From positions 1 to 24,653 of IMG/VR virus record IMGVR_UViG_3300022208_000027: a stretch of DNA of 24,653 bases; one strand, 5' to 3'. The position numbers and the translations under genes are program-made. This DNA comes from a virus. Shown here in pieces: positions 8,654-23,537 of the stretch. Below the pieces are notes generated by a model, which made no database searches, was not told where the DNA came from, and saw only the letters and a program-made list of their open reading frames with translations. The stretch's first letter is position 1. Every line of letters begins with the position of its first letter.

Positions 8654-9261
8654 TATGCGAAAACCTCAATAATTCTATAACTTGAAACAAGTGCTTTGAT
8701 CTGCGGAGGGATGCCACCTGACTGATTTAATACTCCGCAAGCACCAGGGTCAAGACAATCGCCTCTGTTACGGTACAGGAAATTAACATATTCTTTTATC
8801 GCTGTTTTTATCCTTTCCGGGACTGCATCAGAATCTCCATACCCAGCAACAAAAACTATCTGCAAAGGATAAGGAATGTCATCAAGCGATGTGTCAAAAG
8901 AAGGAAACAAAATCCTGCTAAACCCGTGATTATGTTTCTTTATCTGGAAATCCTGGTCAATAAATGAACCACCTGAAGATACCTGAACGCTTGTAACTGA
9001 TTTCAATGGAGCCCTGCGAAGTTTAACAAAAGGATAAATTTCTGTTTTATATGCAACTAAGAAATTAGAAAAATCACCATTAACAGTTCGTTCAATAAAG
9101 TATTGACCAGTGTATGATTCAAGTTGTTCGGTAGCTGTTTCAATATATGCCTGGATTAGATCGTCCTCAGCTGTGCTTGTTACACGCATGAAATCCTTGG
9201 CTTCCTGAAGTGTGACAGGAAAACCAACTGGATAAACAGTTATGGTATAAAAATCACTCAT
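8653..9261 (-). CDS. Head-tail connector (HK97 gp6-like)
   Basis: A protein of 202 residues. The N-terminal helical signature FPVTLQEAKDFMRVTSTAED, then DDLIQAYIETATEQLESYTG, is characteristic of gp6-like connector proteins (Phage_connect family), which form a 12- or 13-fold ring under the portal. A beta-rich insertion (~80-145) contains FVKLRRAPLKSVTSVQV, and the C-terminal helix begins PERIKTAIKEYVNFLYRNRG. The length fits the longer DUF3168/connect_1-type fusions. It lies directly after the capsid genes and overlaps its neighbours by one base. Confidence 0.85.
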   Translation of the reverse strand: MSDFYTITVYPVGFPVTLQEAKDFMRVTSTAEDDLIQAYIETATEQLESYTGQYFIERTVNGDFSNFLVAYKTEIYPFVKLRRAPLKSVTSVQVSSGGSFIDQDFQIKKHNHGFSRILFPSFDTSLDDIPYPLQIVFVAGYGDSDAVPERIKTAIKEYVNFLYRNRGDCLDPGACGVLNQSGGIPPQIKALVSSYRIIEVFA

Positions 9262-9563
9262 TACTCAGCCTTTTTCGCTTCGATTCGTTCAAACAATTCT
9301 TCATCTGTCCAATCTTTTCGAACACGCCCGCCAAGATTTTTATATTTTTCTTCAGCTTCTTCTCTGTCGAAGGATTCCTTGATATAATCTGCTTCTTCAT
9401 CACTCAAAACAGGTTCAGTTTCTGTCAAATATGGAGTTGCCCAACCTGCCTCGATCAATTCATTTGCAAGGTCATTATGGCAATTGTGTGTGCCAGATTC
9501 GATATAAATAATATCAACCCCTCGAAATGCCCATGCTCCACTTTTTTCAATTTGCAATTTCAT
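9261..9563 (-). CDS. Small phage head-region protein, function unknown
   Basis: An acidic protein of 100 residues between the decoration and connector genes. The N-terminal half (QIEKSGAWAFRGVDIIYIES) is strand-rich and ends in an A-G-W-A motif; the C-terminal half is highly charged, ending DWTDEELFERIEAKKAE, a helix that resembles short SAP/HeH-type tails. Similar small proteins are common after capsid genes in HK97-like phages, but I do not recognise a defined function. The start ATG follows GGAGATAAAAG. Confidence 0.6.
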   Translation of the reverse strand: MKLQIEKSGAWAFRGVDIIYIESGTHNCHNDLANELIEAGWATPYLTETEPVLSDEEADYIKESFDREEAEEKYKNLGGRVRKDWTDEELFERIEAKKAE

Positions 9564-9590
9564 CTTTTATCTCCGTTGGCTGCTCTTCAG

Positions 9591-9634
9591 CGATAGGCCA
9601 CCGCGCCTATCGGACCACGGGCCTAAGCCCATGG
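9591..9634 (-). other. Two tandem GC-rich intergenic hairpins
   Basis: Between the decoration gene stop (9644) and the next start (9563) the - strand RNA can form two adjacent stem-loops: an 8-bp stem at 9627-9634/9615-9622 with a four-base loop, and a perfect 8-bp stem at 9605-9612/9591-9598 with a six-base loop. The first contains a pair that is a G-U wobble in - strand RNA but a C-A mismatch on the + strand, which argues for function as mRNA. There is no U-run, so simple termination is unlikely. Confidence 0.6.
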
Positions 9635-9643
9635 TTTCGCAAA

Positions 9644-10039
9644 TTATACCTGTGCTGGTTTGTGATGTGCGCCCCACTTAATTGATGTAATGCTTGTTGC
9701 TCCGTTTGATGCGCCACCTCCAAGAGTAATCCTGACATATCGTTTTTTTCCGATATATCCAATTGACTGCGCAGCATCATCGGTTGACAGGGAGAATGGA
9801 TTTGCTGTCTGTCCAAGGATAAGATCAGCTGGGACAGTTTCTGCATCTGCAAGGCCTGAGTCATCCCCATGCTCAACAAGAGCCACAACATCAGCCGTGA
9901 TTGTTGCGTTCAAAAATGTAAATTCAAGCCCTTCATACCTTGCAGTATCGACAATAGCACCGCTAACAGCGGTAGTAACAGTCTGAGCAGCAAGGTTAAG
10001 TTCAGGGACAATATCATGATGTAGGTCAAATACGTTCAT
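9644..10039 (-). CDS. Probable capsid decoration/stabilisation protein
   Basis: A protein of 131 residues immediately after the major capsid gene. It is Ala/Thr/Val-rich and predominantly beta, with YEGLEFTFLNATITADVVAL in the middle and QSIGYIGKKRYVRITLGGGA near the C-terminus. The I-G-Y-x-G-x-x-R-Y-V-R motif recurs in small proteins placed just downstream of HK97-fold capsid genes, some of which are decoration proteins. The call is made from location and composition. The start ATG is preceded by AAGGAGATAAAAA. Confidence 0.55.
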   Translation of the reverse strand: MNVFDLHHDIVPELNLAAQTVTTAVSGAIVDTARYEGLEFTFLNATITADVVALVEHGDDSGLADAETVPADLILGQTANPFSLSTDDAAQSIGYIGKKRYVRITLGGGASNGATSITSIKWGAHHKPAQV

Positions 10040-15053: not shown

Positions 15054-15087
15054 TGTATCGACACTATGTATTTTAATTATAAATAAT

Positions 15088-15152
15088 AACTCATGAGATT
15101 TCGGTATCCGCAAGGACCGAGCCGCATACATCGGTGTCAGATCTCATGGGTT
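15088..15152 (+). ncRNA. Structured leader RNA, possible C4-like antisense RNA
   Basis: The RNA can fold as a three-way junction. P1 is a 12-bp stem pairing 15088-15099 with 15141-15152 (one G-U). P2 (15102-15119) pairs CGGT..CC with GGACCG around a GCAA tetraloop, with a two-base bulge. P3 (15121-15135) is a short CCG/CGG hairpin. Seven U's follow P1 (15151-15157), so it is also a plausible transcription terminator or attenuator 12 bases upstream of the pRha ribosome-binding site. C4 antisense RNAs of phages P1/P7, which control antirepressor genes, have a similar three-stem architecture and GCAAGG...GCCG-like core; this match is from memory. No complementary target was found nearby. Confidence 0.5.
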
Positions 15153-15172
15153 TTTTTATTTTTGGAGGCTTT

Positions 15173-20243: not shown

Positions 20244-20795
20244 TTAACCATTATTTATTAACGCGGTACTATCTTTTTTGGCTAAATAATTATATGCCGA
20301 AGAATCTTCTTTGCATTTATAGAAATCATACTTTTGTTCCAAATGATATCTTGCTACAACTGCTTCTTCTTCAGTATCATATGCCCTTTGCTCAAGAAGT
20401 CTTCTATTTCTATTTATTCTTGCTACCCATTTTGAAATCCCTTTATTCCAAGAAACTCCAGTTACCCCTGTCTTGCATCTTGTGCTTACTTTTGAATTAA
20501 TATAATTACATGTTCGTGAAACGTGTCTAAGATTATCAATTCTATTATCAAGCCTATCTCTGTTTATATGATCTATGTCGTTTTCTGGGGTATATCCATA
20601 CATATACAACCATGCCAACCTATGTCCATAGTAATATTTTTCCCCTATTCCAATAAACAAGTATCCTTGGGAATCTATACATCCAACTTTTTTATTCGGG
20701 TTTTTTATTCTTGTGAATATGCCTGTTTCTGGATCATAAGAAAGGACTGACTTTAGGTCTGACTGCAAAAGAGGTTTTTTGCGAGTGGTGTTCAT
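20244..20795 (-). CDS. HNH homing endonuclease with AP2-type DNA-binding domain
   Basis: A protein of 183 residues. The ATG at 20795 follows AGGAG with a 7-base gap; an in-frame ATG at 20864 would read through the leader hairpin and is less likely. An N-terminal FTRI..K-G segment (~27-45) is followed by the HNH_3 motif: GHRLAWLYMYG (His58), DIDHINRDRLDNRIDNLRHV (Asp75-His76 to Asn88) and N97. Residues ~113-150 (GVTGVSWNKGISKWVARINR) form an AP2-like DNA-binding domain. Such enzymes are free-standing selfish genes that cut phage DNA lacking the insertion. It lies within an operon of unrelated small genes, as expected for a free-standing homing gene. The C-terminal ~20 residues are not conserved motif. 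Confidence 0.9.
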   Translation of the reverse strand: MNTTRKKPLLQSDLKSVLSYDPETGIFTRIKNPNKKVGCIDSQGYLFIGIGEKYYYGHRLAWLYMYGYTPENDIDHINRDRLDNRIDNLRHVSRTCNYINSKVSTRCKTGVTGVSWNKGISKWVARINRNRRLLEQRAYDTEEEAVVARYHLEQKYDFYKCKEDSSAYNYLAKKDSTALINNG

Positions 20796-20803
20796 AAATT
20801 GTC

Positions 20804-20845
20804 TCCTTTGGTCGGAAGCCCGGCCACCAAAGGATTGGGCCGGGC
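20804..20845 (-). promoter_or_regulatory. Leader hairpin whose loop pairs with the HNH gene ribosome-binding site
   Basis: The - strand leader forms a perfect 8-bp GC-rich stem (20838-20845 with 20818-20825). Its 12-base loop contains TCCTTTGGT (20834-20826), which is exactly complementary over nine bases to ACCAAAGGA (20812-20804), the segment carrying most of the AGGAG signal of the endonuclease gene. It could form an H-type pseudoknot or an alternative hairpin, both hiding the ribosome-binding site. Pairing is seen in sequence; regulation is inferred. Confidence 0.6.
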
Positions 20846-20908
20846 ATACCGCAATTGTTTTCATGCCTGGGAGCTACCACAACTTAACTACATCCTACCA
20901 AATACGGG

Positions 20909-21190
20909 CTATTCTTTCAACTGTTTTTCAAACGTCATTTCCTGTATTTTTGCAAGCTGATTTTTCAAGCTTTTTGTTTTCCTATTCTTCATGGCGATAA
21001 ATTCTTTTCTTGCTTCGGCCTCTGTTAAATGCCATTCTTTCCCATAGAAATTTTGTGAGAATGCCCACTTACCATTCTTTTCAATGTTACACGAATCACC
21101 ATCGACATCAACTTTAGCCATATGGATTTCAATACCTGATGTCAACGCATACTTAGTTAGATATACCGTTTTAAGATCTTTTGATTTCAT
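20909..21190 (-). CDS. Hypothetical phage protein
   Basis: A protein of 93 residues from the ATG at 21190; a GTG three codons upstream is also possible. It reads KTVYLTKYALTSGIEIHMAK, then FSQNFYGKEWHLTEAEARKE, and ends in a basic helix (KNRKTKSLKNQLAKIQEM). The V-Y-x-T-K-Y-A-L-T-x-G-I motif recurs in small phage proteins that I recall from other phages; function unknown. Its start overlaps the end of the NrdR-like gene by 20 bases. Confidence 0.58.
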   Translation of the reverse strand: MKSKDLKTVYLTKYALTSGIEIHMAKVDVDGDSCNIEKNGKWAFSQNFYGKEWHLTEAEARKEFIAMKNRKTKSLKNQLAKIQEMTFEKQLKE

Positions 21191-21344
21191 TCCACTCACC
21201 TTTTATTTTTTTAACCAAAACCTCATACGGTGAAAACCTATTCCCGCACTCTAAGCACTCTCTTCTTCTCCTGATAAGCACTCCTTTAACCTTGCTTGTC
21301 CTGCTGTCAACTACCTTGTTGTATGTTAAGCATTTGTTGAACAT
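21171..21344 (-). CDS. Stand-alone NrdR-type zinc ribbon protein
   Basis: A protein of 57 residues: MFNKCLTYNKVVDSRTSKVK, then GVLIRRRRECLECGNRFSPY, then EVLVKKIKGEW. The V-x-D-S-R ... I-R-R-R-R-E-C-x-x-C-x-x-R-F-x-x-Y-E pattern is that of the N-terminal zinc ribbon of NrdR, the ribonucleotide reductase repressor. The ATP-cone that normally follows is absent, and the first Cys pair is reduced to a single Cys (Cys5), so metal binding may be altered. It is just long enough to be overlooked by gene callers and overlaps the next gene. It might bind NrdR boxes or serve as an unrelated small DNA-binding protein. Confidence 0.7.
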   Translation of the reverse strand: MFNKCLTYNKVVDSRTSKVKGVLIRRRRECLECGNRFSPYEVLVKKIKGEWNEIKRS

Positions 21345-22874: not shown

Positions 22875-23537
22875 TTAGCTCAATAAATAAGTGCATTTAT
22901 ATTTTTCTTTTGCCAATTTATACAAAACTTCTTTTCTTTCCGCATATGGCATTTCAATATCAATATAAGCAGAGTTTTTACCTTCAAGCCAAGCAAGCAT
23001 GTCAAGCTGTTCTTCGGTTGCTGTTTCGCGAATGTCTTTTCTATGCTCACCAAAGACAATGTTGTTAAGCATTTTTGCTTCATTTGCAAAGTGATAAAAC
23101 TTAGCAGGTTCATGCGCTCCATCTACAGAACTACTCATGATTTTATAATTTGCGCAGGCAAGAATCCGCTTCATGTTCCAATCTAGCTTTGATTGCTTCC
23201 CAGACATGTATTCAAGAAAAACCTTAAGCTTAAACTCAGGGCTTAACCACGTAGCGAATTCCATGGCTATTAATTCATGCCCATAAGTTCCACCGTTATA
23301 CTTTCCACGCTTAGAAATGATAGATTTTAATTCACTCACTTCTGAGGTATTTAAAAACTTATCTATAGTTTCAATAAACTCAACAGTTGACTCAAGCCTT
23401 TTCCAGTTATCTATTCTTTTATTAGGAAAATATTTACCAAGATCGTTCAGGCATATATATCCATTTTCATCAACCCTGATCTCTCCATCGAGATCATTAA
23501 ACTTCATTCTTATTTGCAGAGCTTCATTTAGTTCCAA
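22875..23537 (-). CDS. KilA-N domain regulatory protein
   Basis: A protein of 220 residues. It starts at a TTG (23537), chosen because AGGAGG lies directly upstream and no in-frame ATG is near. Residues ~20-110 are a KilA-N domain: RVDENGYICLNDLGKYFPNK, NWKRLESTVEFIETI, then YNGGTYGHELIAMEFATWLS. Residues ~145-220 form a helical C-terminal domain (KFYHFANEAKMLNNIVFG ... MPYAERKEVLYKLAKEKYK) shared with the pRha protein at 15173-15778. KilA-N proteins are phage DNA-binding regulators or antirepressor-type proteins. It has its own promoter behind a terminator, so it may be expressed independently and lead the downstream operon. Confidence 0.87.
   Translation of the reverse strand: MELNEALQIRMKFNDLDGEIRVDENGYICLNDLGKYFPNKRIDNWKRLESTVEFIETIDKFLNTSEVSELKSIISKRGKYNGGTYGHELIAMEFATWLSPEFKLKVFLEYMSGKQSKLDWNMKRILACANYKIMSSSVDGAHEPAKFYHFANEAKMLNNIVFGEHRKDIRETATEEQLDMLAWLEGKNSAYIDIEMPYAERKEVLYKLAKEKYKCTYLLS

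Follow-up and report, generated by a model that had tools for sequence, protein, structure and literature searches.

In a 24.7-kb virus record with a GC content of 39.5%, the gene for an HNH homing endonuclease is preceded by a hairpin that carries, in its loop, the complement of the gene's own SD region. This arrangement raised the question of whether the leader of the endonuclease message represses its own translation and whether it belongs to a known family of regulatory RNAs. The whole record (24,653 nucleotides) was analyzed and is called the window here.

Layout and rarity of the endonuclease leader

A few small genes lie between the HNH gene and the terminase genes downstream of it. The window terminase was about 50% identical to those of Pseudoalteromonas phages; a terminase search for close phage relatives returned three distant loci only, and a search of a genome collection for relatives of the HNH protein returned one distant HNH. 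Of the small genes on the upstream side of the HNH gene, the one at 21171-21344 (minus strand) encodes 57 amino acids that include an NrdR-like zinc ribbon (E 1.7e-11). A KilA-N domain gene, possibly for an antirepressor-type regulator, was found at 22875-23537 (minus strand; E 4.6e-23).

The hairpin, loop, and SD lie 5' of the HNH_3/phrog_99 endonuclease gene on the minus strand, with coordinates that decrease in the direction of transcription. In the RNA, the order is GCCCGGCC-CAAUCCUUUGGU-GGCCGGGC, UUCCG, ACCAAAGGAG, and AUG. The features, in window coordinates, were as follows.

20892..20920, minus strand: promoter-like TTGAAA-17-TAGGAT with a TG extension, directly 5' of the leader (consensus match, 9/12)
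20879..20885, minus strand: AAGTTGT, complementary to ACAATTT between the SD and the AUG (from MFE folds)
20838..20845, minus strand: 5' arm of hairpin S1, GCCCGGCC (from the sequence)
20826..20837, minus strand: S1 loop, 12 nt, CAATCCTTTGGT (from the sequence)
20834-20826, minus strand: anti-SD segment TCCTTTGGT inside the S1 loop (from the sequence)
20818..20825, minus strand: 3' arm of hairpin S1, GGCCGGGC (from the sequence)
20813..20817, minus strand: linker TTCCG, which would cross S1 if a pseudoknot forms (from the sequence)
20803..20812, minus strand: target ACCAAAGGAG, including the SD AGGAG at 20807-20803 (from the sequence)
20812-20804, minus strand: ACCAAAGGA, the 9-nt part of the target that matches the loop and overlaps AGGAG (perfect complement)
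20244..20795, minus strand: HNH endonuclease gene, 183 amino acids, ATG at 20795-20793 (HNH_3, E 9e-16; phrog_99, 2.5e-54)

The hairpin and its complement were as the initial annotation had described them. The 8-bp stem is perfect, the 9-nt complement overlapping AGGAG is exact, and the three-base and five-base connecting loops are CAA and TTCCG, with 0 nt between the 9-nt segment and the 3' arm. The stem, which the annotation had called conspicuous in an AT-rich genome, was the sole all-GC, perfect 8-bp stem (loop of 3 to 16 nt) in the window. From the hairpin to the ATG there is a single ACCAAAGG site, and a second, upstream target site is absent. The leader is about 90 nt long and is located 3' of the promoter-like sequence, which was identified by consensus only and of a kind expected about once by chance across the region scanned. 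An intrinsic terminator was searched for, and none was found. An in-frame ATG at 20864, which would read through the hairpin, was rejected as an alternative start; it is not preceded by an SD.

The rarity of this arrangement, like the hairpin and the complementarity, was read from the sequence itself. We defined a combined motif as an 8-bp stem with a loop of 9 to 16 nt, at least 9 nt of which are complementary to the next 40 nt. The window contained this motif once. It was absent from 60 dinucleotide-preserving shuffles, both strands included, and had a single occurrence in 551,611 bases from other viral sequences. A 9-nt complementarity between a hairpin loop and its own SD was unique to the window leader in a set of 79 nonredundant HNH leaders plus the starts of 296 control genes, and no 9-nt match arose when SD regions were exchanged between the HNH leaders in 60 rounds. 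Treated as a simple duplex, the loop-SD pairing had a z of -3.5 relative to shuffled upstream sequence, and the strength of the upstream-RBS duplex placed the window leader in the top three of 52 HNH leaders, together with L063 and L064. The loop-SD complementarity is well above chance. Across the HNH leaders, anti-SD loops were not enriched: under a strict stem rule, matches of at least 5 nt were observed 9 times, versus 6.4 times with swapped SD regions.

No homologue of the exact window leader was found in the collections searched. The pattern TCCTTTGGTN{5,30}ACCAAAGGAG gave 10 chance-like viral matches, none with a GC hairpin; the pattern TTTGGTGGCCGGGC..ACCAAAG gave none, and blastn of the leader against phages returned one spurious mycobacteriophage match.

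Folding of the leader and access to the SD

The predicted energy of S1 alone was -16.5 kcal/mol, or -18.2 kcal/mol with loop pairs, and the nested fold of the 43-nt stretch from the hairpin to the SD reached -21.9 kcal/mol. The sequence also fits the layout of an H-type pseudoknot (S1 plus S2) with loops of 3 and 5 nt. The rough energy of this pseudoknot was about -30 kcal/mol at 9 bp, -25 kcal/mol at 7 bp, and -23 kcal/mol at 6 bp, values that include one generic penalty of 9.6 kcal/mol, of the Dirks-Pierce type, and leave the geometry of the two loops out of account. By this rough measure, the pseudoknot appeared to be favored over nested folds. Because the 5-nt linker is tight across an 8-bp stem, full 9-bp pairing may be sterically strained.

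When positions -90 to +40 were folded with a program that does not include pseudoknots, opening the start region cost 2.4 kcal/mol. This value was among the lowest in the phage, and the window SD was, under nested folding, about as open as most starts in the same phage. The leader fold was also no more stable than those of shuffled sequences (z -0.90). As modeled, nested structure alone is no strong block. Because nested folding leaves the SD fairly open, any control would have to come from the pseudoknot or from pairing in trans.

The fairly open SD would also suit a reading in which the GC hairpin functions independently as a 5' element (a stabilizer or a ribosome-spacing or mRNA-protecting structure) and the loop-SD match has little effect. 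Such an element would be in keeping with the stability of S1 by itself, and there is a precedent in seg43(25) of Aeromonas phage 25, in which a very stable hairpin is located immediately 5' of an unsequestered RBS (PMC2988022). Of the alternatives that we considered, this one survived best; we nevertheless think it unlikely, because it leaves unexplained a perfect match placed exactly over the SD, which has no equal in the other HNH leaders or the control leaders.

A second alternative is that the SD is closed mainly by a long-range nested helix, AAGUUGU/CUCC with GGAGACAAUUU, and that the loop-SD match is secondary. In MFE folds, CTCC (20873-20870) and AAGTTGT could form such a helix across GGAGACAATTT (20806-20796). 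The helix was present in the MFE structure of the 95-nt fold and in most longer folds, and in a 145-nt nested fold GGAG was paired via AAGUUGU/CUCC with a probability of 0.83-0.91. However, the low cost of opening the start region and a leader fold no stabler than shuffles argue against this helix as the main closure, and we regard it as improbable.

int-alpA RNAs in front of related HNH genes

Homologues of the HNH protein were gathered from viral contigs, and their upstream leaders were compared. In two unrelated homologues, L030 and L053, the HNH leader was an int-alpA RNA (RF02996) above the Rfam gathering score. We then used a covariance model, R1, made from 31 int-alpA sequences and showing strong covariation in P1 and P2. 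R1 matched the HNH leaders L253 (Salmonella phage ZBSTP8), L258 (Salmonella phage SB28), and L332 at 38-42 bits, and its scores for L261 and L268 were weak; an int-alpA layout was recognized by eye in L063, L064/L259, L264, L267, and L300. A compensatory change in P3 (GCA...TGC versus GCG...CGC) distinguishes the int-alpA leaders of L253 and L258, each of which is at positions 339-391 and has a 7-nt loop-SD match. The loop-SD pairs in HNH leaders included CUCAUCA/UGAUGAG in L253, UCGUUA/UAACGA in L300 and L332, and CUUAAGC/GCUUAAG in L261.

Hairpins of other kinds were also noted among the HNH leaders. A GC hairpin of the type GAAGCCCC...GGCTTC recurred in L281, L289, L290, and L307, some tens of bases 5' of the SD of the HNH gene, and ACCTCTTCA...TGGAGAGGG, 5' of the HNH start in L087, resembled a simple hairpin enclosing the SD.

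The variable P3 loop of int-alpA RNAs was complementary to two sites farther downstream. The first (site 1) comes just after P1, and the second lies in the SD region of the next gene; the distance from P1 to the start of that gene had a median of 35 nt (range, 29-63). We compared own and swapped P3 loops in 45 int-alpA RNAs with distinct loops, a set in which relatedness was reduced by the distinct loops only and not by a tree. At site 1, the mean was 4.13 for own loops versus 2.32 for swapped loops, and at the SD region, it was 4.73 versus 3.24 (0/1000 permutations in both cases). Because own loops beat swapped loops at both sites, the int-alpA loop and its targets change together across phages.

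The genes 3' of the 45 int-alpA RNAs were diverse, with HNH_3 in 4 and NUMOD4 in two; one of the 4 HNH_3 genes, that of L030, entered the set because it was found as an HNH gene. Tandem two-site P3 complementarity was seen across L133-L252 (for example, in L142, L143, L187, and L193). When genomes of one phylum were sampled, int-alpA was present in 51 of 399, with up to six copies per genome.

The window leader has the trait typical of int-alpA, a hairpin loop complementary to the SD region (9 nt, perfect), and one trait of leaders that sequester the RBS of an endonuclease gene, namely, an HNH gene (HNH_3, phrog_99) directly 3'. An Rfam scan of 20700-20920 gave no match to RF02996 at an E of 10 or less, and R1 aligned to the leader as a simple hairpin only, with a score of 10.5 bits and a window-wide E of 0.87, compared with 38-66 bits for accepted members. 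Assignment to int-alpA was rejected on these two results, on the one target where int-alpA has two, and on a sequence resemblance that was not significant. The C4 (RF01695) and c4-2 models did not match the leader at an E of 10, and of the 4227 Rfam models run on it, only CRISPR-DR9 appeared, at chance level (E 9.8) and on the other strand. Judged by its sequence, the window leader appears to work like int-alpA and C4 but is a member of neither.

Two other RNA candidates were noted in the window. One, its only c4-2 candidate (15087-15155, plus strand), scored 36.5 bits (gathering score, 41), and ended in a T run. It lies 18 nt 5' of the start codon (ATG, 15173) of a gene for a Rha-domain regulator (Phage_pRha, E 1e-21), which is the classical location for a C4-type RNA. 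The other was a type II hammerhead ribozyme (9574-9642, minus strand; 52.2 bits; gathering score, 37) between the open reading frames at 9261-9563 and 9644-10039.

It could be argued that the leader has diverged from an antisense RNA of the int-alpA/C4 type, having lost its three-way junction and kept the hairpin as a P3 remnant. GTGG, TAGCTCCC, GAAAA, and GCGG are found 5' of the hairpin in int-alpA order, and the gene family and the promoter position match those of int-alpA-led HNH genes. Local alignment to the int-alpA core gave a score of 23, which was reached by 31 of 300 shuffles (not significant) and by 5 of 198 other window stretches. Against such descent are the Rfam models, which did not match even at an E of 10, the hairpin-only alignment to R1, and the single downstream target site, and we consider it about as doubtful as closure by the long-range helix.

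Proposed mechanism and comparison with known systems

The least probable explanation, and one that we give little weight, is chance, that is, a transcribed palindrome or an operator in the DNA with an accidental match between loop and SD: one unrelated viral stretch in 552 kb meets the same motif definition, and pyrimidine-rich partners are easily found for poly-purine SDs, but only about 0.05 motifs are expected per window, even before an SD target at the correct distance from an ATG is required.

On balance, and with moderate confidence, we read the leader as a probable cis-acting translational self-repressor of the phage HNH homing endonuclease. Transcription of the ~90-nt leader would start at the promoter just 5' of it, and the very stable GC hairpin would form first and display TCCTTTGGT in its loop. 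Once transcribed, the SD region ACCAAAGGAG would pair with the loop to produce an H-type pseudoknot, probably of 6-9 bp, which would keep ribosomes off; the endonuclease would then be made at a low or delayed level. The block may be constitutive, and, like C4 antisense RNA, this loop may be capable of acting in trans on further transcripts of the gene. Pseudoknot formation, repression, and any relief of repression are steps that we infer. Free-standing homing endonucleases must limit harm to the host, and a self-blocking message would be a compact means of doing so.

The initial annotation had proposed a pseudoknot, or a switch between two hairpins, that represses the endonuclease, and this proposal was borne out in part. 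It gained from a complementarity that exceeds chance and covers the SD, from the promoter-like sequence 5' of the leader, from the rough energy that favors a pseudoknot, and from int-alpA leaders of the same HNH family, in which a loop is set against the SD with co-varying sequences. The case for repression was weakened by the SD that nested folding leaves open (2.4 kcal/mol) and by the lack of enrichment for such loops in the HNH family.

Phage leaders that control translation through RNA structure offer several points of comparison. T4-type homing endonuclease genes (I-TevI, segB, and mobE) are held down by RNA structures that sequester the RBS (PMC2988022). In those genes, a simple hairpin contains the RBS and a late promoter avoids the hairpin, whereas in the window a hairpin 5' of the SD would capture it through its loop. 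The T4 gene 32 leader pseudoknot is likewise in a phage mRNA leader and tied to translational repression (PMC3014915), but it lies 67 nt ahead of the start codon, serves to nucleate gp32 binding, and does not pair with the SD.

The C4 antisense RNA of phages P1 and P7 is made from the operon of its target gene, 5' of that gene, and its b' loop covers the target RBS (PMC5320573). C4 (RF01695; c4-2, RF02944) resembles the window leader in being an upstream RNA with a loop that pairs with the target RBS. C4 also comprises P1-P3 and two antisense loops, is processed by RNase P, and targets an antirepressor operon, which would set it apart from the window leader.

The parallel with int-alpA (RF02996), which also comes from sequence comparison, includes a leader RNA with a loop complementary to a downstream SD, a promoter-like sequence just 5', and a position in front of related phage HNH genes (L030, L053, and Salmonella phages ZBSTP8 and SB28). 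The two differ in architecture: int-alpA is a P1-P2-P3 three-way junction (with CUA, GAAAA, and CUG in the covariance model) with two tandem targets, whereas the window leader is one hairpin with one target. No clear role for int-alpA was found in the literature searched, although the int-alpA part of this comparison may be partly known already. The comparison suggests a testable role, in which the P3 loop matches the SD of a gene 29-63 nt downstream and a second, possibly competing site. More tentatively than we read the window leader itself, we suggest that phage HNH homing endonuclease genes may repeatedly use leaders in which a loop captures the gene's own SD; int-alpA RNAs would act as switches of this type, in which two tandem targets compete for one loop, and the window leader would be a minimal, single-hairpin version.
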